Below, piece by piece: positions 49,986-63,709 of a stretch of 64,000 bases of DNA. The DNA is from Bradyrhizobium lablabi (lineage in GTDB: Bacteria > Pseudomonadota > Alphaproteobacteria > Rhizobiales > Xanthobacteraceae). Position 1 is the stretch's first letter. The number at the start of each line of letters is the position of its first letter. A program made the position numbers and the translations under genes. The notes beneath the pieces were generated by a model, which saw only the letters and a program-made list of their open reading frames with translations, was not told the origin of the DNA and searched no databases. The stretch covers positions 2,604,001-2,668,000 of the forward strand of contig NZ_LT670844.1 in the NCBI RefSeq assembly GCF_900141755.1. The letters are read 5' to 3'.

Positions 49986-50705
49986 TCAGCCCGGCGACGC
50001 CAATTGACGCTCGACGGCCTTCGGGTCATGGGCGAGACCCTGGGCCAGGCCGCGCGCCATTTCGCCGACATAGATTTCTTCCTCGCCGGCCTCGAACCCG
50101 TCGAGGATTTCCGCCGCCGCATCAGCCGTCGTCATCTTCGGTATCGGCAGCATCGCGGTCATCCTTGTGTCGACCGCGCCGGGCATTGCGGCTGCGATCC
50201 GGACGCCCTGCGGTGCCAGTTCGCCGCGCAGCCCTTGCGTCAGGCTCAGCCCCGCCGCCTTGGACGCACAATAGGAACCCATGAACGGCAAATTGACCCG
50301 CGCCAGGATGGTCAGAATATTGAGCACGGCGCCGCGATTTTTGGTCAGCGCCGGCGCGAACGCCCGCGTCACCCGCAGCGGCGCCAGATAATTGGCCTCG
50401 ATCTCCTCCTTGGCCATCGCGAGGCTGGGTGCGGTCATGAAGCTGGTGTTGTGGTTGACGCCGGCATTGTTGATCAACAGCGTGACGTCGGTCGCAGCCG
50501 CGGCGGCCTTGGCGACGTCGTCGTCGCTGGTGACGTCCATCTTGATCGGCACCAGATGGGGCGATGCGGCGAGCCCTGAAATATCCCGTGCGGCGGCGTA
50601 GATCTTGGCGGCGCCGCGGGCGGTGAGCGCTGCGATCAGCGCCTGCGCGATCGCGCCGCTGGCCCCGGTGATGAGAACGACAGAACCCTTGATGGTCTCG
50701 GTCAT
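49986..50705 (-). CDS. Short-chain dehydrogenase/reductase coupled to ABC operon
   Basis: SDR of 239 residues. The cofactor loop TGASGAIAQA deviates from TGxxxGxG: the last Gly is Ala. The catalytic Tyr and Lys are in SYCASKAAG, but the residue 13 before the Tyr, normally Ser, is Thr in NILTILARV. It may still be active. The start overlaps the upstream ATPase gene stop (ATGA), so the reductase is translated with the ABC importer. Probably converts the imported substrate. Confidence 0.87.
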   Translation of the reverse strand: MTETIKGSVVLITGASGAIAQALIAALTARGAAKIYAAARDISGLAASPHLVPIKMDVTSDDDVAKAAAAATDVTLLINNAGVNHNTSFMTAPSLAMAKEEIEANYLAPLRVTRAFAPALTKNRGAVLNILTILARVNLPFMGSYCASKAAGLSLTQGLRGELAPQGVRIAAAMPGAVDTRMTAMLPIPKMTTADAAAEILDGFEAGEEEIYVGEMARGLAQGLAHDPKAVERQLASPG

Positions 50706-51559
50706 GCGGCTGATCCTTGCTGTTGGGGAGGAACAAAAGGGCTGGAATCGTCCAACCAGCCCGGCTCGACGTCGGGTAATGGGATCGCGGAGAGCAGCTG
50801 CCGCGTGTAGTCGTCGCGCGGGGCTGAGAAGATCCGGGCGACCGGCCCGTATTCGACGACCTCGCCATGGTGCAGGATCGCGACGTCGTCGCAGAGCACG
50901 CGGACCACCGACAGATCGTGGCTGATGAACACCAGCGTCAGGCCCAGCCGCGCGCGCAGCTCTCTCAGGAGCAGCAGGATATGCGCCTGCGTCGAGACGT
51001 CGAGGCCGGATACGATCTCGTCGGCGACGATGAAATCGGGCTCGAGCGCCAGCGCCCGGGCGATCCCGGCGCGCTGGCGCTGGCCGCCCGACAATTCATG
51101 CGGATAGCGGTCGATGAAGGCGGTCGGCAGTCCGACCAGATCGAGCAGCGCCGCCGCGCGATCGCGCTGATCCCGCCGCCCTTTTATCCGCCCGTACACT
51201 TTTAAGGGACGCGTCAGCGTGACACCGAGCCGCAGCCGGGGATTCAGCGATGATTGCGGGTCCTGGAAAATCATCTGGATGCGCGCGCGGAGCGGCCGCA
51301 TCTCGGCCTCGCTGATGCCGCCGATTTCGAGACCATCGAACTGGATGCCGCCGGAGGTCGGCTTCAACAGCCGCACCAAAAGCCGGCCGAGCGTGGTCTT
51401 GCCTGACCCGGATTCGCCGACCAACCCGAGCACCGAGCCGCGCGGCACCGCGAGGTCGACCTGCTTGACCACCTCGCGCGAGGCCGCCCGACGGAATAAT
51501 CCCGCGCGCTCCGGATAAGCGAAGGACAAGCTGCCGGTGCGGAGCAGGACATCGCTCAT
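50702..51559 (-). CDS. Oligopeptide-type ABC importer, ATPase (DppF/OppF-like)
   Basis: ABC ATPase of 285 residues: Walker A GESGSGKT at 48-55, Q-loop FQDPQSSLNPR, signature LSGGQRQR, Walker B FIVADEIVSGLD (Ile replaces the usual Pro of DEP) and the switch His in SHDLSVV. N-terminal ATG at 51559 overlaps the upstream ATPase stop by four bases. Together with the 51556 ATPase it powers one importer. Substrate unknown. Confidence 0.93.
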   Translation of the reverse strand: MSDVLLRTGSLSFAYPERAGLFRRAASREVVKQVDLAVPRGSVLGLVGESGSGKTTLGRLLVRLLKPTSGGIQFDGLEIGGISEAEMRPLRARIQMIFQDPQSSLNPRLRLGVTLTRPLKVYGRIKGRRDQRDRAAALLDLVGLPTAFIDRYPHELSGGQRQRAGIARALALEPDFIVADEIVSGLDVSTQAHILLLLRELRARLGLTLVFISHDLSVVRVLCDDVAILHHGEVVEYGPVARIFSAPRDDYTRQLLSAIPLPDVEPGWLDDSSPFVPPQQQGSAA

Positions 51560-52443
51560 GACATTGCCACCGCCGACTGCCGGTCGAGCCGATGCGCCTC
51601 GGCCCACAGGCTTTCGATCAAAGCCGGCGGCACCGGCCGCAGCGCCTCGGCCGGCCGGTCGGCACGCGGCGTCGCCGCCAACAGCGCGCGCGTATAGGGA
51701 TGACGCGGCTTCGCCAATACATCCGCGGTTTCGCCCTCCTCGAGCACGCGCCCGGCATGCAGCACGGTCATGGTGCGGCAGATTTTTGCCACCACGCCAA
51801 GGTCGTGCGTCACGAACAGGATGGCCGCGCCATGGCGCAGACGCAATCGCTCGACCAGTTGCAGCACCTGGCGCTGCACGGTGACATCGAGCGCCGTGGT
51901 CGGCTCGTCCGCGATCACCAGGCTCGGATCGCAGGCGAACGCCATCGCGATCAAGACGCGCTGCCGCATCCCGCCGGAGATTTCGTGCGGATAAAGCTCC
52001 AGCACCCGCCGCGGCTCGCGGATCGCGACTTCGGCGAGCAATTCCTCCGCACGCGCCAACGCATCGCGCCTCGACAGCGCAAGGTGATGCCGCAATAGCG
52101 TCGCGATCTGCCCGCCGACGCGTTTTACAGGATTGAGCGAGGTCATCGGATCCTGCGGGATCAATGCGATGCGGCGGCCAAGCAGGCTGCGCCGCTCCGG
52201 CTCCGGCATCGCGACGAGATCGCGTCCCTCGAACAAAATGGTGCCAGCGGTGATGACGGCGTTCGCCGGTAATAGACCGAGCACGGCGCGCCCGAGCATC
52301 GACTTGCCGGCGCCGGATTCGCCAACCAGTCCCCTCACCTCGCCGGCGCCGACGTCCAGGCTGGCGCCACGCAAAACATTCGCAGCATTTTCGCGATGGC
52401 CGATCGCGACGTGGAGGTCGTGGACAGAGAGGACGGCGGTCAT
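51556..52443 (-). CDS. Oligopeptide-type ABC importer, ATPase (DppD/OppD-like)
   Basis: ABC ATPase of 295 residues: Walker A GESGAGKS, Q-loop PQDPMTSLNP, signature ISGGMRQR, Walker [12 protein letters not shown] and the switch His in THDLGVV. The protein start is the ATG at 52443, overlapping the permease stop by four bases; the longer open frame to 52545 belongs to the permease strand. The FeS-type C-terminal extension of some DppD proteins (Cys-rich) is lacking. Partner of the DppF-like ATPase immediately downstream. Confidence 0.93.
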   Translation of the reverse strand: MTAVLSVHDLHVAIGHRENAANVLRGASLDVGAGEVRGLVGESGAGKSMLGRAVLGLLPANAVITAGTILFEGRDLVAMPEPERRSLLGRRIALIPQDPMTSLNPVKRVGGQIATLLRHHLALSRRDALARAEELLAEVAIREPRRVLELYPHEISGGMRQRVLIAMAFACDPSLVIADEPTTALDVTVQRQVLQLVERLRLRHGAAILFVTHDLGVVAKICRTMTVLHAGRVLEEGETADVLAKPRHPYTRALLAATPRADRPAEALRPVPPALIESLWAEAHRLDRQSAVAMS

Positions 52444-53327
52444 CGTCGCTGCACCGGGTCGAGCAGCGCGCGCAGACCGTCGCCAAGCAGGTTGAAGCCG
52501 ATTACGCTTGCGATAATGCAGCCGATCGGCAGCGCCATGATCCACGGCGCCTGATAGACGATCTGGCGTCCCTCGGCGATCATGCCGCCCCAGGTCGGCG
52601 TGTCGCCGGCCACCGAAATGCCGACGAACGACAAAATCACTTCCACCAGGATCGCAATCCCCATTTCGACCGCCAGCAATGTGACCACCAGCGGAACGAG
52701 GTTGGGCAGGATTTCGAGTCGCAGGATACCGCCGCGGCCAAGCCCGATGACGCGCGCGGCGGCGGCATAATCGCGCTTGAGCTGCACCATGGTTTCGGCG
52801 CGAACCACGCGGGCAAAGCGGGTCCAGTCGACGACAACGATGGCCGCGATCACCGAGGTCAATCCCGCGCCGATCACCGCCGCCAGCACGATCGACAATA
52901 GCACCGGTGGAAACGCCATCCAGACATCGATCAGTCGCGAGGTCAGTTGATCGACCCAGCCGCCAAAGCTGCCGGCGATCAGCCCAAGCGCGATGCCGAT
53001 CAGCGCCGCCAGCGTTGCCGCGATCAGCGCGACGGCGACCGCGGTCTGTGCCGAGTAGATCAACCGCGACAACACGCAGCGGCCGAGGCTGTCGGTGCCG
53101 AGGAAATAAGCGGGGTCACCGCCATTGGCCCAGGCCGGCGGCAATTGCGCCGACAGCAAATCCTGCTCGAGCGGATCGTGCGGCGCGAGCAGCGGCGCCA
53201 GCAAGGCGACCAGCACGAGAATAGAGACGAGCGCCGCGCCGATCCAGAGCCGCGGCCCGCCCCGCCGAAATCCGGCGATCCATCGCGACGGCGGCGCGGC
53301 CGCATGATCGAGGGCAAGGTCAGCCAT
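52440..53327 (-). CDS. Oligopeptide-type ABC importer, permease (DppC-like)
   Basis: Inner-membrane permease of 295 residues with the DppC layout: N-terminal segment (LWIGAALVSILVLVALLAPL), the HDPLEQDLL and FLGTDSLGRCVLSRLI motif, and the EAA loop (RAARVIGLGRGGILRLEILPN-type region), then WGGMIAEGRQI and a final helix before LGDGLRALLDP. Overlaps the DppB-like gene by eight bases at its start, so both are translated together. About six membrane segments. Confidence 0.93.
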   Translation of the reverse strand: MADLALDHAAAPPSRWIAGFRRGGPRLWIGAALVSILVLVALLAPLLAPHDPLEQDLLSAQLPPAWANGGDPAYFLGTDSLGRCVLSRLIYSAQTAVAVALIAATLAALIGIALGLIAGSFGGWVDQLTSRLIDVWMAFPPVLLSIVLAAVIGAGLTSVIAAIVVVDWTRFARVVRAETMVQLKRDYAAAARVIGLGRGGILRLEILPNLVPLVVTLLAVEMGIAILVEVILSFVGISVAGDTPTWGGMIAEGRQIVYQAPWIMALPIGCIIASVIGFNLLGDGLRALLDPVQRR

Positions 53328-54327
53328 GGCGCAGCCTCGGATCCAGCAGCGTCACCAACAGGTCCACGGCGAAATTCAGCGCGATGAACAGCACCGCGAA
53401 GGTCAGAATGAGACCCTGGATCAGCGGAAAGTCGCGGTTGATCACCGCGTCGATCGCCATGTTGCCGATCCCCTCATAGGAGAAGATGCGCTCGACCAGC
53501 ACGGTGCCGCCGAGCAGCAGCGTGACCTGAACGCCGCCGAGCGCGACCGTCGGGATCAACGCATTGGGAAATACCTCGCGCAGCAGGATTTTTGGGCGCG
53601 AAAAGCCGCGGGCACGCGCAATCTGCGCATAATCCTGATCTTCCGCCTCCGCCAGCGAGGCTTTTAGAATCCGCGCCACCAATGCAGCGAAGGGCAGCGC
53701 CAGCGCTACCGCCGGCAGGATCATGTGCGGCAGCAGCGCACCCGCAATGTCGAACCGCCCTGTCAGCAGGCTTTCGACGAGATAAAAGTTGCTGCGGAGG
53801 TTGACGTCGATCTCTGGGTCGATGCGGCCCGAAATCGGCAGCAGAGGGATCAACACGCCGAACACCAACAACAGGATCAACGCCCAGAGAAAATCCGGAA
53901 TGGCAAGGAAGACGCCGACGCCGCCGTCGACCACCCATTCCGCCCGCTTGCCGCGAAGCTGGATGCCGATCAGCGCGGCGATCGTCCCTAACATCACCGC
54001 GATCAGGCTCGCCAGCAGTGCCAGTTCCAGCGTCGCCGGCAATCGCGCCCGCACCAACTCGAACACGCTCTGGTGCACGCTGATCGAGCGGCCGAAATCG
54101 CCGCTCAATGCCTGACCGAACCAGGTGAAAAATTGCTGCAGGATCGGCTGATCGAGCCCATAAAACGCCCGCAGCCGCTCGATGTCGGCTGGCGTCGCGC
54201 CCGGCGGAATCATCATGGCGATGGGATCGCCGGGCACCACGCGCAGCAGCACGAAGACGATCACCGCGACGCCAACAAGCGTCGGCGGGATAAGGACGAG
54301 TCGCCTGATGATCTCGCCCCAGCGCAT
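53320..54327 (-). CDS. Oligopeptide-type ABC importer, permease (DppB-like)
   Basis: Inner-membrane permease of 335 residues of the DppB type: N-terminal helix RLVLIPPTLVGVAVIVFVLL followed by RVVPGDPIAMM, then GLDQPILQQFFTWFGQALSGDFGRS, and the EAA loop ARARGFSRPKILLREVFPNA. It is 24 bases downstream of the binding-protein gene and overlaps the DppC-like gene. Nothing unusual in length or motifs. Confidence 0.93.
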   Translation of the reverse strand: MRWGEIIRRLVLIPPTLVGVAVIVFVLLRVVPGDPIAMMIPPGATPADIERLRAFYGLDQPILQQFFTWFGQALSGDFGRSISVHQSVFELVRARLPATLELALLASLIAVMLGTIAALIGIQLRGKRAEWVVDGGVGVFLAIPDFLWALILLLVFGVLIPLLPISGRIDPEIDVNLRSNFYLVESLLTGRFDIAGALLPHMILPAVALALPFAALVARILKASLAEAEDQDYAQIARARGFSRPKILLREVFPNALIPTVALGGVQVTLLLGGTVLVERIFSYEGIGNMAIDAVINRDFPLIQGLILTFAVLFIALNFAVDLLVTLLDPRLRHG

Positions 54328-54351
54328 CGTCGTGCCGCCTTGTCTGTCGCC

Positions 54352-55896
54352 CTAGGCCTGCGTGATCAGTTGCGGAAGTATCATGCCGTTGGCCTGCGCC
54401 ACGACTTTCAGGCCCTTTTTGTGGATGATCGGCTGCACATATTGGAACAGCGGGATCACCTCGCCTTCCTCGGCGATATATTTGTCGACCGCCTTGTAGC
54501 CGGCGATCCGCTTGGCTTCATCCTTTTCGCCCCACAGCGGACCGATGCGCTCGACCAGATCCTTGCCCTTCCAGGCGCAATGCGGCGAGGGGCCGAACAT
54601 CGCAAAGCCTGTGGAGGTCGAGGGATCGCCGATCGCGTTGCCCCAATTGTAGAACGCGGCCGGCGCCAGCGCGTGGCGCGCGCGCAATTCGAAATGCTGT
54701 GCGATCTCGTAGACCTCGATATTGGCCTCGATCCCGACTTTGCGCCACATCCCGACGATCGCCTGGATCATCTCGTAATCCTTCGGCTTGAAGCCGCGGG
54801 TGGTCTGGATCGTGAATTTGACCGGCTTCTCCGGCGAGAAGCCGCTCTTGGCGAGCAGGCTCTTTGCGAGTTCCGGATCGTAGGCGACCTTGATCGAGGG
54901 ATCGAACGCGGCATATCCCGGCGCTTCCAGGGTTGCGATCGGAACTCCGTAGCCCTTCAAGAGCCGGTCGACGATCGCCTTCTTGTCGATGGCGTGATTG
55001 GCGGCAAGACGGACATTGCGGTCGAGCATCGGGTCGATGTCGGTGATGAAGATCATCGCGATGTCGGACACCGGTTTTGTCTGCCCGGCCAGTCCCGGCT
55101 TGTTCTTCAGGCGGTCGAACTCCTCGTAGGGAATCTCGAACGTCACGTCCGATCCGCCGGATTCCATCTCGGCGACGCGGCTGGTTGGATCGGTGACGAA
55201 TTTGAACACCACGGTCTCGAACGCTGGCTTCGGACCCCAATAGCCCGGATGCGCCTTGAGCCGGAGGAATGCGTTGCGCTCGAAGGCATCGACCTTGTAC
55301 GGGCCGGAACCGATCGGCGCCTTCTCGAAACCGTCCGCGCCGACCTTCTCATAATAGGCCTTGGGCAGGACGTAAGCGGTCAGGAACGCCATCCATTTGA
55401 ACAAGGTCGGCTCGAACTCCTTGACGTCGCCGGTGATGGTGTTGCCGTCGATCTTGTAGTTGCCGACCTTGGACCAGACGAACTGGATCGGATTTCCACT
55501 TTTCGTATCGGCGGCGCGCTGCAGCGACCACACCACGTCTTCCGGCGTCACCGGCGAGCCGTCATGCCAGGTCGCGCCCTTGCGCAGCTCCAGCGTGATC
55601 TTGGTGCGGTCGGCGTTCCAGCCCCATTTTGTCAGCAGGCCCGGCTTGAAGGATAGATCAGGCGCCTGACCGACATAGGGATCGAACACCGACTGATAGA
55701 TCGACTGGATGGTCGGATTGACCGCGGACAATCCGACAGTCGGATCGAACGACGGCAGATTGACATTGTAGGCGATTGTCAGCGTTCCCGGTGCCGCGGC
55801 CTGCGCGCCGCCGCTGAGCAAACCCGAAGAGAGCGGAAGGGCGGCAGCGCCCGCCAGCTGAAGGACGTGACGGCGAGACAGCACTGACGACACCAT
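54352..55896 (-). CDS. ABC importer periplasmic binding protein (SBP family 5)
   Basis: Solute-binding protein of 514 residues, family 5 (peptide/nickel/opine type). Tat signal SRRHVLQLAGAAALPLSSGL with twin arginine; the mature protein starts near AAAPGTLTIAYN. Family motifs: LELRKGATWHDGSPVTPEDV and IGSGPYKVDAF. It is 60 bases downstream of the DLH/SnoaL fusion gene with a hairpin between. A hairpin there may lower or protect the downstream message, as is common for abundant binding proteins. Ligand unknown; the operon context suggests a non-peptide molecule. Confidence 0.93.
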   Translation of the reverse strand: MVSSVLSRRHVLQLAGAAALPLSSGLLSGGAQAAAPGTLTIAYNVNLPSFDPTVGLSAVNPTIQSIYQSVFDPYVGQAPDLSFKPGLLTKWGWNADRTKITLELRKGATWHDGSPVTPEDVVWSLQRAADTKSGNPIQFVWSKVGNYKIDGNTITGDVKEFEPTLFKWMAFLTAYVLPKAYYEKVGADGFEKAPIGSGPYKVDAFERNAFLRLKAHPGYWGPKPAFETVVFKFVTDPTSRVAEMESGGSDVTFEIPYEEFDRLKNKPGLAGQTKPVSDIAMIFITDIDPMLDRNVRLAANHAIDKKAIVDRLLKGYGVPIATLEAPGYAAFDPSIKVAYDPELAKSLLAKSGFSPEKPVKFTIQTTRGFKPKDYEMIQAIVGMWRKVGIEANIEVYEIAQHFELRARHALAPAAFYNWGNAIGDPSTSTGFAMFGPSPHCAWKGKDLVERIGPLWGEKDEAKRIAGYKAVDKYIAEEGEVIPLFQYVQPIIHKKGLKVVAQANGMILPQLITQA

Positions 55897-59898: not shown

Positions 59899-61599
59899 CT
59901 ACTTCAATCCCTCGAACTTGTAGGAAGCCTGCACGAAGGCGCCGAAGCGTTCGGTTCGAACCGGCAGGGTCTGGCAGGGACACTGTGAACCGAAAATATT
60001 CGTGGACGCATTATTCGACCACATTGCCCAGTAGCGGCCGCCGGCACCGATGCTGAAGGAATTACCCAGCGCATAGGCCAGGATGGCCTCGAGCTGCACG
60101 CCCCTGCCATTGCCGCTTTCCGGGGAGACGGTGTCGGTCACGTCGGTTCGCAGCAAATGATTGTCCTTGGCGGTAAACGACACCAGCGGCAGATAGGCGG
60201 CATCGGCGGTCAAGGTCAATCGATCCATCAGCTTCACCTCACCATTCACACCGAGCCGCATGGAATGCCAGGTGTCATTCTCGGTGATGCCGAGCGTGGA
60301 ATTCGCAATCGAGGGGACGCAGTCGGAATTTGCGTTGGCGATCTGGACGCAGCCATAGGCCGACTTGTTCTCCCTGAAATAATTGTAGCCGATGAAGCCG
60401 CCGACCTTGGAGCTGTGCCCGTGAAACAGCGCGTAGCCGACATCGAAGGTGCCGTAAGCCAGATCGCCGTTCACCGGATCGGAAAGCGTGTTGGAGTAGG
60501 GAACAATTGCGGTTGGAGTTAAGATGCCCCAGTCTTCGTCATGCATCTTGCCCGACAGATGGCTGCCGCCGCCGATAAAACCCTTGAGGAAGAAATTTGT
60601 ACTGGTGTCGATGCGGCCGAACAACTCGCCGGTCGCCGACGTCGTGTCGTAGGTCAGGCGCGAAACCAGGAGGTCCTGCTGCGGCGTATTCGGGGTTGCG
60701 CCCAGATCCTTCTGGAACCTGCCGGAGGAGTACCAGGTACGTCCGCCGATCTCGATTTCGGCATCCGGGACGTAGGCCGCCTCGGACGTCCCTCGCAGGC
60801 GATAGTCCGACGCCGGCGGCTCCCACTGGGCATGGAGATCTTCGCCGAGCTTCAGGTTGAGGCCCAGTTTGAAGATATGCATGTCCTGACTGACGCTGCT
60901 GGTAGTGCCTGTCGTCTGAAGAAACCTAGCCGGCAGGCCAATCTGTAACAGGCTCGCCGGTGTGGCGATGCCGAGACCGCCGAAATTCGCATAGTCGTAT
61001 TCCAGCCTGAGCGACCACGCCGGTGTCAGCGCTTTCTCGACGCCGGCGCCGATCGTCCATCCCCATCGCACACCGTCGAAGCCGGTCGATGTCAAGGGAA
61101 CCAGACCATTGGTCGTGAGGTCGACCTGCTCGCGGAGCGCGGCGAGCCCGCCCTTGGCATAGATCAGCGTGCGTCCCCCGGTGCCGGCTGCGTAACCGAC
61201 GCGACCGGTCAGGCTGCCGGTTGCCGTCTGGCGCACATGACAATTGGCCGAGAAGAAAAAGCCGGACGAAGCAAGGCATGTCGCGGTACCGTCGGCACTC
61301 ACCGCACTGGCCTCCGCCTCCGCGCCAAGCACCCAATTCGAGTTGGGAGTTTGCCAGTTATAGCCGATCTGCCCGCCGCCCAGCACGGCGGGACTTCGGA
61401 CATTGCCGCCATAAATCCCGGGCCCTGCGGGATCGGAAACTTGCGACGTTCCAAAACCGCCGCCGACCTGCCCGCCCATGTAAAGACCGGTCCAGGACCA
61501 CAGCACCCTTGGCGCAACCACCACATCCGGCAGGTCCGCCGCTCTTGCGAGACCGGACCCCAACAGCAGGCCGCAGACCGCAACTGAGATCTTTTTCAT
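59899..61599 (-). CDS. Outer-membrane fusion: Omp25/31-like barrel + omptin-like protease
   Basis: Protein of 566 residues. Signal peptide (KKISVAVCGLLLGSGLARAA), then an OmpA-type barrel of the Omp25/Omp31 group (about 25-260: WTGLYMGGQVGGGFG, LGGGQIGYNWQ, GGRTLIYAKGGLAALREQ, LEYDYANFG). Residues about 280-566 resemble omptins: LLVSRLTYDTTSATGELFGR is like the omptin VSQLDW strand. The HDEDWG motif (Asp354, Asp356) and a D-N-H (Asp479, His481) match OmpT Asp83/Asp85 and Asp210/His212. Spacing 354 to 479 is 125 residues against 127 in OmpT. A C-terminal aromatic YKF-type strand ends it. Alternative: a barrel protein without protease activity. Confidence 0.75.
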   Translation of the reverse strand: MKKISVAVCGLLLGSGLARAADLPDVVVAPRVLWSWTGLYMGGQVGGGFGTSQVSDPAGPGIYGGNVRSPAVLGGGQIGYNWQTPNSNWVLGAEAEASAVSADGTATCLASSGFFFSANCHVRQTATGSLTGRVGYAAGTGGRTLIYAKGGLAALREQVDLTTNGLVPLTSTGFDGVRWGWTIGAGVEKALTPAWSLRLEYDYANFGGLGIATPASLLQIGLPARFLQTTGTTSSVSQDMHIFKLGLNLKLGEDLHAQWEPPASDYRLRGTSEAAYVPDAEIEIGGRTWYSSGRFQKDLGATPNTPQQDLLVSRLTYDTTSATGELFGRIDTSTNFFLKGFIGGGSHLSGKMHDEDWGILTPTAIVPYSNTLSDPVNGDLAYGTFDVGYALFHGHSSKVGGFIGYNYFRENKSAYGCVQIANANSDCVPSIANSTLGITENDTWHSMRLGVNGEVKLMDRLTLTADAAYLPLVSFTAKDNHLLRTDVTDTVSPESGNGRGVQLEAILAYALGNSFSIGAGGRYWAMWSNNASTNIFGSQCPCQTLPVRTERFGAFVQASYKFEGLK

Positions 61600-61749
61600 G
61601 ACAACGACCCACACTTGCTACCGACACGCGACGCGCCGTTAACTACAGTGGGTGGGAATGCTTAAGAAAAACTGAGCGTTGACGAACGGGTAACCCTAAT
61701 TTTCGATAATTTTGCGTTCGAACAAGTCGCGGAGATTATGAAGCGTTTC

Positions 61750-62721
61750 TTAACGAGCCGCTTCGAACAAATGGCAGGCGACCTGCCGGTCCTTTCCGGA
61801 CGACAGCAGCTTCGGCGCCTCGGCGCGACAGCGATCCATGACCAGCGGGCAGCGCGGATGGAATCGGCAACCCGGCGGCGGATCAAGCAAGCTCGGGACT
61901 TCGCCGGAAATCGCCCGCGCGCGGACAAATGCCGGATCCGGACGCGGCACCGCGTCCAATAGCGCCTTGGTATAGGGGTGCTGCGGCCGTGCGTAGATAT
62001 CGTGCTTCGGCGCGGTCTCGACGATCGAGCCGGCATACAACACCGCGACCCGGGTCGAGATGATCCGGACCACCGCGAGGTCATGGGCAATGAAGAGATA
62101 GGTCAGGCCCAACCGCTGCTGCAGGTCCATCAGCAGATTGACGATCTGCGCCTGCATCGAGACGTCGAGGGCCGATACCGGCTCGTCGCAAACGATGAAA
62201 TCCGGATTGAGCGCGAGCGAGCGGGCGATGACGATGCGTTGCCGCTGGCCACCGGAAAACTCGTGCGGGTAGCGATCGGTGCTGCCCTTCGGCAGTCCGA
62301 CGAGTTCGAACAATTCGGCGACACGATCGTTGCGGTCGCGGCGCGACAGTTTTCCGGCAATCTCCAGCGGCTCCGCGACCGAGCGGCCGACCCGCATCCG
62401 CGGATTGAGCGCCGCAAACGGATCCTGAAACACGAATTGCAGGCGGGAGCGCACCGCGCGAAGCGCCGCGGACCCGTCGCGGCCGGTGATGCAATGTCCA
62501 AACAACGAGACGCTGCCCGCCGTCGCCGGGATCAGCCCGACCAGAATGCGGCCCGCGGTGGATTTGCCCGAACCGGATTCGCCGACCAGCCCCAGCGTCT
62601 CACCGGCCATGACGTCGAAATCGACATCGTCCAACGCGTGCAGCGGTGAAACCCCGCCGGCGTGGCCGACCATGAATGTCTTGGTGAGGCCGCGCGCCTC
62701 CACGATCGGCGCGTCAGCCAT
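61750..62721 (-). CDS. Oligopeptide-type ABC importer, ATPase (DppF-like), second system
   Basis: ABC ATPase of 323 residues: Walker [10 protein letters not shown]-loop [10 protein letters not shown], signature FSGGQRQR, Walker [10 protein letters not shown], switch His in AHDLAVV. The C-terminus has the oligopeptide-type zone [14 protein letters not shown], with Cys residues typical of the OppF group. The start at 62721 overlaps the upstream ATPase stop by eight bases. Its operon is distinct from the one at 50-56 kb and runs out of the window. An intergenic AT-rich stretch follows the stop. Confidence 0.92.
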
Positions 62722-63709
62722 CGGCATTGCCGAAAAGAACCACGCGCGGCGGACAGCGGACGCTGTGCAACGCGCCTGCCAGCTGCAGCGGCGGCGGCGC
62801 CTGCCGGCAGGCCTCCTGCACAAAGTCGCAACGCGGCGCGAAGCGGCAGCCCCGGATATTTTCCTGCGGCCCTGGGATCCGGCCGGGGATGGTCCGCAAG
62901 CGTGCGGCATCGCCGTCGAGTTTCGGCACCGCCGCCATCAGTCCGGCGGTATAAGGATGAACCGGCCGGCGGAACAGCGTTGCGACCGGCGCCTGCTCGA
63001 CCACGCGCCCGGCATACATCACGACGACGCTCTGCGCGAACTCGGCGATGACGCCGAGATCGTGCGAGATCAGCATCACCGACATGCCTAGCTCGTGACG
63101 CAAATCCCGCAACAGTTCGAGGATCTGGGCCTGGATCGTGACATCGAGCGCGGTGGTCGGTTCATCCGCGATCAACAGGCGCGGCCGGCAGGCGATCGCC
63201 ATCGCAATCATTACCCTCTGGCGCATGCCGCCGGAGAGACGATGCGGGTAATCGTCGGCGCGGCGGCGCGCATCGGGAATCCGAACCAGATCGAGCAACT
63301 CGACGGCACGTCGGCGCGCGGCGGCCTCCGGCATGTCCTGATGCTGTCGAAGCGTCTCGGAAATCTGCTCGGATATCGTCAGCACCGGATTGAGCGACGA
63401 CATCGGATCCTGGAAAATCATCGCGATCTCGCGGCCACGAATGCGGCGCAGCGCACGATCCGAAGATTTCAACAAGTCCACTCCCTGAAAGCTGATCGAA
63501 CCCTGGGGAATACGGGTCGCGGCGCGGTCATGCAGCCGCAGGATGGAAAGCGCGGTGACGCTTTTGCCGCTGCCGGATTCGCCGACCACGCCGACGCAAT
63601 CGCCTTCGGCGATGTCGATCGATACGCCCTCGATCGCCGTCAGCCACCCGGCGTCGACGCGGAACTGCACCGTCAGGTCACGGATCGCGAGCAGTGGGAG
63701 TGCGGCCAC
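62714..63709 (-). CDS. Oligopeptide-type ABC importer, ATPase (DppD-like), second system
   Basis: ABC ATPase of 331 residues: Walker [10 protein letters not shown]-loop [10 protein letters not shown], signature LSGGMRQR, Walker [11 protein letters not shown], switch His in SHDLGVI. The C-terminal Cys cluster ([20 protein letters not shown]) is the OppD-type FeS/zinc extension missing from the 51556 ATPase. Neighbour of the permease gene at the window end. Substrate unknown; the binding-protein gene must lie beyond the window. Confidence 0.92.

Follow-up and report, generated by a model that had tools for sequence, protein, structure and literature searches.

The minus-strand gene described here lies in the window, that is, the whole 64,000-nucleotide stretch of Bradyrhizobium lablabi DNA that was analysed, and encodes a two-barrel outer membrane protein. 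Its second barrel is an omptin-fold domain whose catalytic residues are intact, and the two-barrel protein is both real and widespread. The protein most likely is active as a surface protease whose specificity has changed; cleavage is predicted from fold and residues, and a porin is the main rival. The features on which this rests are collected in Table 1.

Table 1. Features of the two-barrel gene and of the reverse-order fusions (window positions unless a locus is named).
Feature	Position	Strand	Basis
Two-barrel outer membrane protein gene, 566 aa, ATG start	59899..61599	(-)	ORF and translation
Signal peptide, residues 1-20	61540..61599	(-)	Putative cleavage after ARA, by eye
First barrel, residues 38-250, OMP_b-brl (PF13505) type, 8 long strands plus a short hairpin, with Cys108 and Cys120	60850..61488	(-)	Pfam, AlphaFold2
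Linker, residues 251-279	60763..60849	(-)	pLDDT <50 at residues 265-276 (AlphaFold2)
Second barrel, residues 280-563, 10 strands, omptin fold	59911..60762	(-)	Pfam PF01278, AlphaFold2, Foldseek
D354-E355-D356, counterpart of OmpT Asp83/Asp85, near end of strand 3	60532..60540	(-)	hhalign
Cys417 to Cys427 stretch	60319..60351	(-)	Cys in 47/49 at each position
D479-N480-H481, counterpart of OmpT Asp210/His212, end of strand 7	60157..60165	(-)	hhalign
Upstream region with AGGGTTACCC, CAACGCT and CTTAAGCATT elements	61600..61760	(-)	Alignment; similar in closest relatives L031 and L032
Reverse-order fusions	L118:1210-3033, L170:1348-3042, L171:1309-3036	(+)	Omptin E 5.6e-38, 1.1e-45, 3.2e-40

Two predicted barrels in one chain

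The initial annotation had read this stretch as an Omp25/31-type barrel fused to an omptin-like barrel in which all four catalytic residues are present, and our analysis bears it out. The GTG/ATG frame on the minus strand contains the codons giving both catalytic triplets, the N-terminal half matches PF13505, and the second barrel has an omptin fold with the four positions occupied. A longer form of the frame starts at a GTG (59899-61614), and the ATG form yields a normal-looking signal peptide. Pfam and AlphaFold2 give the same domain order, an N-terminal eight-stranded OMP_b-brl barrel followed by a short linker and a C-terminal ten-stranded barrel. The AlphaFold2 model of the full protein, built from an alignment of 37 full-length rows, contains the two separate barrels that had been proposed (mean pLDDT 84.7, pTM 0.81), and each half has a Pfam family match of its own. 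Full-length relatives are 39-67% identical to the window protein.

As for the first barrel, its best PF13505 stretch covers residues 35-208 (E 1.9e-16), and this match and the eight strands together identify it as an OMP_b-brl barrel, a group to which we take Omp25/31 to belong. Cys108 and Cys120 are conserved in all 49 family sequences. In NCBIfam, an autotransporter-barrel domain model matches residues 63-207 (19.4 bits, cut-off 16); no omptin model is listed for the window protein, and two other models fall far under their cut-offs. The linker is thought to be periplasmic because the first barrel has an even number of strands. Known omptins are stand-alone barrels.

The second barrel is predicted to adopt an omptin fold

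PF01278 (Omptin) matches residues 337-535 of the window protein and passes narrowly, with 23.6 bits against a cut-off of 22.6. Among ten relatives scanned, seven pass the curated Omptin score and three have no Omptin match at all. At E<=0.01, OMP_b-brl is found in all 37 full-length family rows, Omptin in 26 (best 1.6e-10), leaving 11 members without it, and Pom in 23. The structural evidence points the same way. Modeled alone from 47 rows, the C-terminal domain reaches a pLDDT of 91.8 and a pTM of 0.88, with ten strands if strand 4, which DSSP splits in two, is counted as one. In both Foldseek runs against the PDB the top 11 entries are omptins, a computed OmpT model included; with the C-terminal domain model as query, omptins score TMq 0.69-0.81 (E 2.5e-15 to 2.5e-10), and the next barrel TMq 0.57 (E 7.7e-8). 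The predicted strands and the 11 top entries thus describe a ten-stranded barrel of omptin topology, and a non-omptin barrel is not what structure prediction returns.

Profile-profile alignment reproduces the pairings that had been made by eye between the C-terminal half and omptins, namely VSRLTY with VSQLDW, HDEDWG with VDQDWM, GYNYF with GYQES and DNH with DEH. When family alignments of 37, 47 and 10 rows were compared by hhalign with eight omptins (OmpT and seven others, all from the order to which the window organism belongs), the probabilities were 97.7, 98.2 and 97.4 and the E-values 1.4e-12, 3.3e-14 and 1e-11, over 216-221 columns. At the level of sequence the kinship is remote, since a phmmer search of PDB sequences with the whole protein found no omptin at E<=10 and a profile search with the C-terminal domain found none at E<=1. 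These blank searches, and an identity to omptins of 13-17% in the Foldseek structural alignments, are what one would expect if unrelated β-barrels resembled each other by chance through convergent short motifs. However, the long profile alignment, the Pfam cut-off, the conservation of the catalytic quartet and the fold match all agree, which strongly disfavors that explanation and makes it extremely improbable.

The catalytic quartet is conserved beyond chance

In OmpT, Asp-Asp and Asp-His pairs activate the water that cuts peptides. Both hhalign and a three-family alignment align D354, D356, D479 and H481 with Asp83, Asp85, Asp210 and His212, and the spacing pointed out in the initial annotation is correct: 125 residues separate D354 from D479, against 127 in OmpT as its residues are numbered. 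In the AlphaFold2 model, the catalytic pairs are among the final residues of strands 3 and 7 and, because of strand parity, should face the same, outer, side of the barrel.

We assessed conservation in 77 distinct rows, obtained from 116 matches at E<=1e-20 in stop-free frames of the loci and made distinct over 230 aa, with the window included. Position 354 is Asp in 67 rows and Asn in 10, position 356 is always Asp, position 479 is Asp in 76 and Glu in one, and position 481 is His in all 77; the quartet therefore reads DDDH in 66 rows, NDDH in 10 and DDEH in one. The 49 distinct full-length sequences, again including the window, show the same pattern (D 44/N 5, D 49, D 48/E 1 and H 49, respectively). 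Over 47 family rows, only 18 of 301 C-terminal domain positions are invariant, and they include D356, D479 and H481. The probability that at least three of four random positions in the domain would be invariant is 7e-4, a figure calculated on related rows, and the conservation of the quartet exceeds chance. Among all Asp, Glu and His positions of the window domain, E325, D356, D386, D479 and H481 are the only invariant ones in these 47 rows, so that the sole invariant His is H481 and the three invariant Asp include D356 and D479.

The specificity pocket seems altered

Glu27 is an S1-pocket residue of omptins. In the three-family MAFFT alignment its column holds Glu in 8/8 omptins, Lys in the window protein and Trp (29), Lys (14), Tyr (3) or Phe (1) in the 47 family rows; it is also Trp in 5/5 Pom porins, and the column is less sure than others since strand 1 lies outside the hhalign match. 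From this alignment, the second barrel seems to lack the pocket Glu. The Ser of the VSxL motif is present in 8/8 omptins and 47/47 family rows. Ser99, present in 8/8 omptins, is paired by hhalign with S373 (Ser in 43 of 49) and by MAFFT with a column of 38 Asn and 5 Ser among 47. The Asp208 column is Asp in only 4/8 omptins and Gly or Ala in 46/47 family rows, and the OmpT LPS-site residues are undiagnostic, R138 being found in 1/8 omptins. Cys417 and Cys427 may form a disulfide loop. We read this residue pattern as an active site that has been kept and a specificity pocket that has changed.

The apparently altered pocket, together with R287, E325, D386 and R448, which are invariant charged residues outside the omptin catalytic set, would also fit a barrel for binding or sensing in which the quartet serves another reaction or ligand. 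We consider this improbable, because the spacing and the position of the pairs are omptin-like in the profile alignment.

Relation to Pom porins

By profile, the C-terminal domain is nearer to Pom porins (hhalign E 4e-17) than to omptins (E 3e-14), the Pom alignment consisting of five sequences (L160-L164) from which the weaker matches L165 and L167 were left out. All five keep both Asp of the DxD, and Ala or Gly and Trp replace Asp210 and His212; each of the eight omptins in the three-family alignment has the complete quartet. That the DxD is kept in 5/5 suggests that Pom porins and omptins share ancestry. For the window protein itself, no PF17251 match was listed up to E 10, although 23/37 members match at E<=0.01.

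It follows that the C-terminal domain could be a Pom-like porin that retains the omptin fold and some ancestral residues and cuts nothing, the whole protein being a two-channel porin. The profile distances, the Pom matches in those 23 members and the apparent absence of Glu27, as in Pom, all favor this reading. In addition, PomS forms an anion-selective pore (available text of PMC3561449), and TCDB files a like fusion under PomS/T (section in PMC4827864). Nevertheless, the Asp-His dyad that is absent in 5/5 Pom is kept in the family (Asp 76/77, His 77/77), and Foldseek places omptins well above other barrels. The lack of a DxH in Pom, set beside the full quartet of the two-barrel family, therefore argues for a protease, and we regard the porin as unlikely, yet as an explanation to be taken seriously.

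In a tree of 76 domains, omptins, Pom porins and the two-barrel family fall on separate branches, with SH-aLRT values of 100 for omptins against the rest, 93 for Pom and 99 for the family; the tree was built by a quick method, its long branches are flagged and its midpoint root serves for drawing only. The omptin identity that was originally assigned stands for the fold and the quartet, with the refinement that the family forms a branch of its own, lies nearer to Pom by profile and apparently lacks Glu27.

Distribution of the family and related fusions

At E<=0.001, the C-terminal domain profile finds the family in at least 134 of 265 genomes of the genus, with up to six matches in one genome; the tally includes single-barrel and broken copies and, with eight candidates scored per genome among the matches listed, may be too low. 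Per-genome Pfam tallies undercount the family, since they contain nothing for the window's own genome although the window protein passes the Omptin cut-off. Relatives also occur on seven plasmid records, where six are annotated as outer membrane beta-barrel protein and one as hypothetical protein. Fusion is not universal in the family, because single-barrel members exist in one other genus (L120, L122, L123, L124 and L126) and in a Bradyrhizobium (L013).

The reverse order, a canonical omptin followed by an OMP_b-brl barrel, is found in three of 12 genomes from another family of the order (Table 1). These three form one clade (SH-aLRT 100) within the canonical omptin branch, and a fourth genome of the same bacterial family has a fusion in the window order (L172). 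Fusion of an omptin with an OMP_b-brl-type barrel has probably happened at least twice, giving opposite orders, and this recurrence hints at a useful pairing.

Larger frames were also seen. L173:890-4306 (+), the same gene as L012, is a frame of 1139 aa with TPR repeats, a long middle without Pfam match and a C-terminal family domain that keeps D356, D479 and H481; it resembles TCDB 1.B.72.2.4 as described in the section available in PMC4827864. L041:2528-5644 (+), a frame of 1039 aa, has about 450 extra N-terminal residues without Pfam match before the usual two barrels; this part looks barrel-like by eye and the chain possibly contains three barrels. Extra copies with an internal stop codon occur at G242:C1:2254495-2255385 (inside L159) and in other genomes. 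These copies, and the up to six matches in one genome, are why the family seems to multiply and decay.

A branch with NifA/sigma-54-type promoters

We surveyed up to 500 bases upstream of 49 related genes in a descriptive manner, using what we take to be the NifA and sigma-54 consensus sequences. A sigma-54-like [CT]GGC-N8-TGC was found for 38/49 genes, and for 22/49 a NifA-type TGT-N10-ACA lies 40-200 bases ahead of it; of 1653 control stretches, each 500 bases long and taken from these loci, 320 have the first and 31 the pair. The looser sigma-54 pattern was chosen after 16 upstream stretches had been read, much of the branch having C for the first T, and the strict core pattern occurs in 1/39 family upstream regions. 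The counts are partly circular because the pattern was picked after the sequences had been seen; partial protection comes from the control and from the NifA regulation published for bll1872. A search upstream of 39 family genes with a type III (tts) box pattern of our own gave no match.

All 22 pairs lie, by our reading, within a single clade (39 rows, SH-aLRT 100). Of the 38 genes from this clade that were scanned, 37 have the sigma-54 pattern, the exception being L004. Of 11 genes outside the clade, only the window gene has the pattern, at -189, unpaired and within the upstream coding gene.

One genome (G242) carries a member of 564 aa (L157:9058-10749, minus strand) that is identical to the window protein at 228 of 548 aligned positions (42%). 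By eye, CGGCACGCGGCTTGC lies upstream of it, and a sigma-54 factor gene lies about 10.6 kb away on the plus strand. This member is very probably bll1872 of Bradyrhizobium diazoefficiens, because the layout is that expected of bll1872 and rpoN1 (blr1883), both in the available table of PMC6515984. There, bll1872 (Bdiaspc4_09500) is named an "omptin family outer membrane protease", is assigned to the NifA+RpoN regulon and shows a 115.4-fold increase in soybean bacteroids. The available text of PMC8125078 describes it as a NifA-regulon outer membrane protein whose transcript level ranks in the top 10 for nodules of Aeschynomene afraspera, and PMC4926349 enters it as a hypothetical protein with a value of -5.5. 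Our literature search, mostly of papers outside subscription, found no functional study of bll1872.

The window copy and its surroundings

The window genome, a single contig of 7.9 Mb, has no nifH over the cut-off (best 24.7 bits against 394), and the window member therefore most likely acts outside nitrogen-fixing symbiosis. No paired NifA/sigma-54 pattern was found in the region upstream of the gene (61600..61760). Its AGGGTTACCC, CAACGCT and CTTAAGCATT elements, which recur only partly in more distant relatives, may be a regulatory site.

The gene is flanked upstream by two peptide-type ABC ATPase genes and downstream by an ORF for which Pfam gave no match, by MipZ and by a winged-helix gene. 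Genes for peptide-type ABC transporters form two groups in a span of about 13 kb (window 50702-55896 and 61750-63709). A coupling to such genes was rejected: beside relatives at loci L002-L110, whose flanks mostly span up to about 4 kb, only weak generic ABC matches were found (27-33% identity).

Proposed function

We think it probable that the window protein acts as an omptin-superfamily protease at the cell surface, joined by a short periplasmic linker to an eight-stranded OMP_b-brl barrel. The two barrels would lie next to each other in the outer membrane. On the outer rim of the second barrel, the Asp-Asp and Asp-His pairs would activate water and cut surface peptides as in OmpT. The small barrel might serve as an anchor or as a module for partner binding or adhesion. 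The cleavage preference probably differs from the basic pairs of OmpT. In the window organism the protein may act in free life, for example on antimicrobial or other peptides at the surface, and members of the NifA-controlled branch would act in the nodule.

More tentatively, and with more doubt than conviction, we propose the following history. An omptin branch so far not recognized as protease, its catalytic residues intact, would have changed its pocket and become fused to a barrel, and NifA/sigma-54 would then have recruited it as a bacteroid surface protease for cleaving plant peptides (nodule antimicrobial ones, for example) at the symbiosome interface; the window copy would come from outside that recruited branch. 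The family may thus be an unstudied protein-cutting tool of plant symbiosis, relatives in nodule bacteria carrying nitrogen-fixation promoters. If it is a protease, the targets of a strongly expressed bacteroid surface enzyme become testable. A covalent partner barrel suggests a way of holding a surface protease beside an anchor, channel or adhesin, and the two-barrel family connects omptin proteases with Pom porins, making visible the residues that set the two apart.

Comparison with known systems

Omptins (PF01278; OmpT, Pla), which we take to be MEROPS A26, likewise have a ten-stranded barrel, the DxD and DxH pairs and the VSxL Ser. The two-barrel family differs from them in being fused behind a second barrel, in apparently not keeping Glu27, in its low identity and in its separate tree branch. 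Pom porins (PF17251; PomS/PomT of Protochlamydia, TCDB 1.B.72) are the best profile match and have in common the DxD and the Trp seen at the Glu27 column in many family rows, but the five sequences examined lack the Asp-His dyad, and PomS functions as a porin (PMC3561449, available text).

The closest precedent is TCDB 1.B.72.2.3, a 577-aa BRP + PomS/T fusion from an alphaproteobacterium whose PomS/T domain is said to have limited similarity to omptins (Reddy and Saier 2016, section in PMC4827864). Its domain order and size match those of the window protein and, comparing by description, this fusion very probably has the same architecture and would belong to the same family. It is viewed as pore-forming, and the section on it in PMC4827864 does not deal with catalytic residues, structure or regulation. 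Our literature search, which largely covered papers outside subscription, found none that treats the fusion's catalytic residues, its structure or a protease function. The architecture is hence not wholly new, having been in print since 2016 as a porin fusion (PMC4827864, same section); the conserved catalytic set, the fold evidence, the promoter split and the reverse-order fusions are new here.

Compared with bll1872, the window protein is very probably a member of the same two-barrel family, but the presumed bll1872 belongs to the sigma-54-promoter branch and the window copy lies outside it. A rhizobial omptin is also known from Mesorhizobium symbiosis islands, where ompT1 is among the genes with a preceding nod box (available text of PMC7643969). 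Finally, multi-barrel outer membrane proteins with at least two barrels per chain, as predicted here, have been described (Solan et al. 2021, as cited in the available text of PMC8592465).
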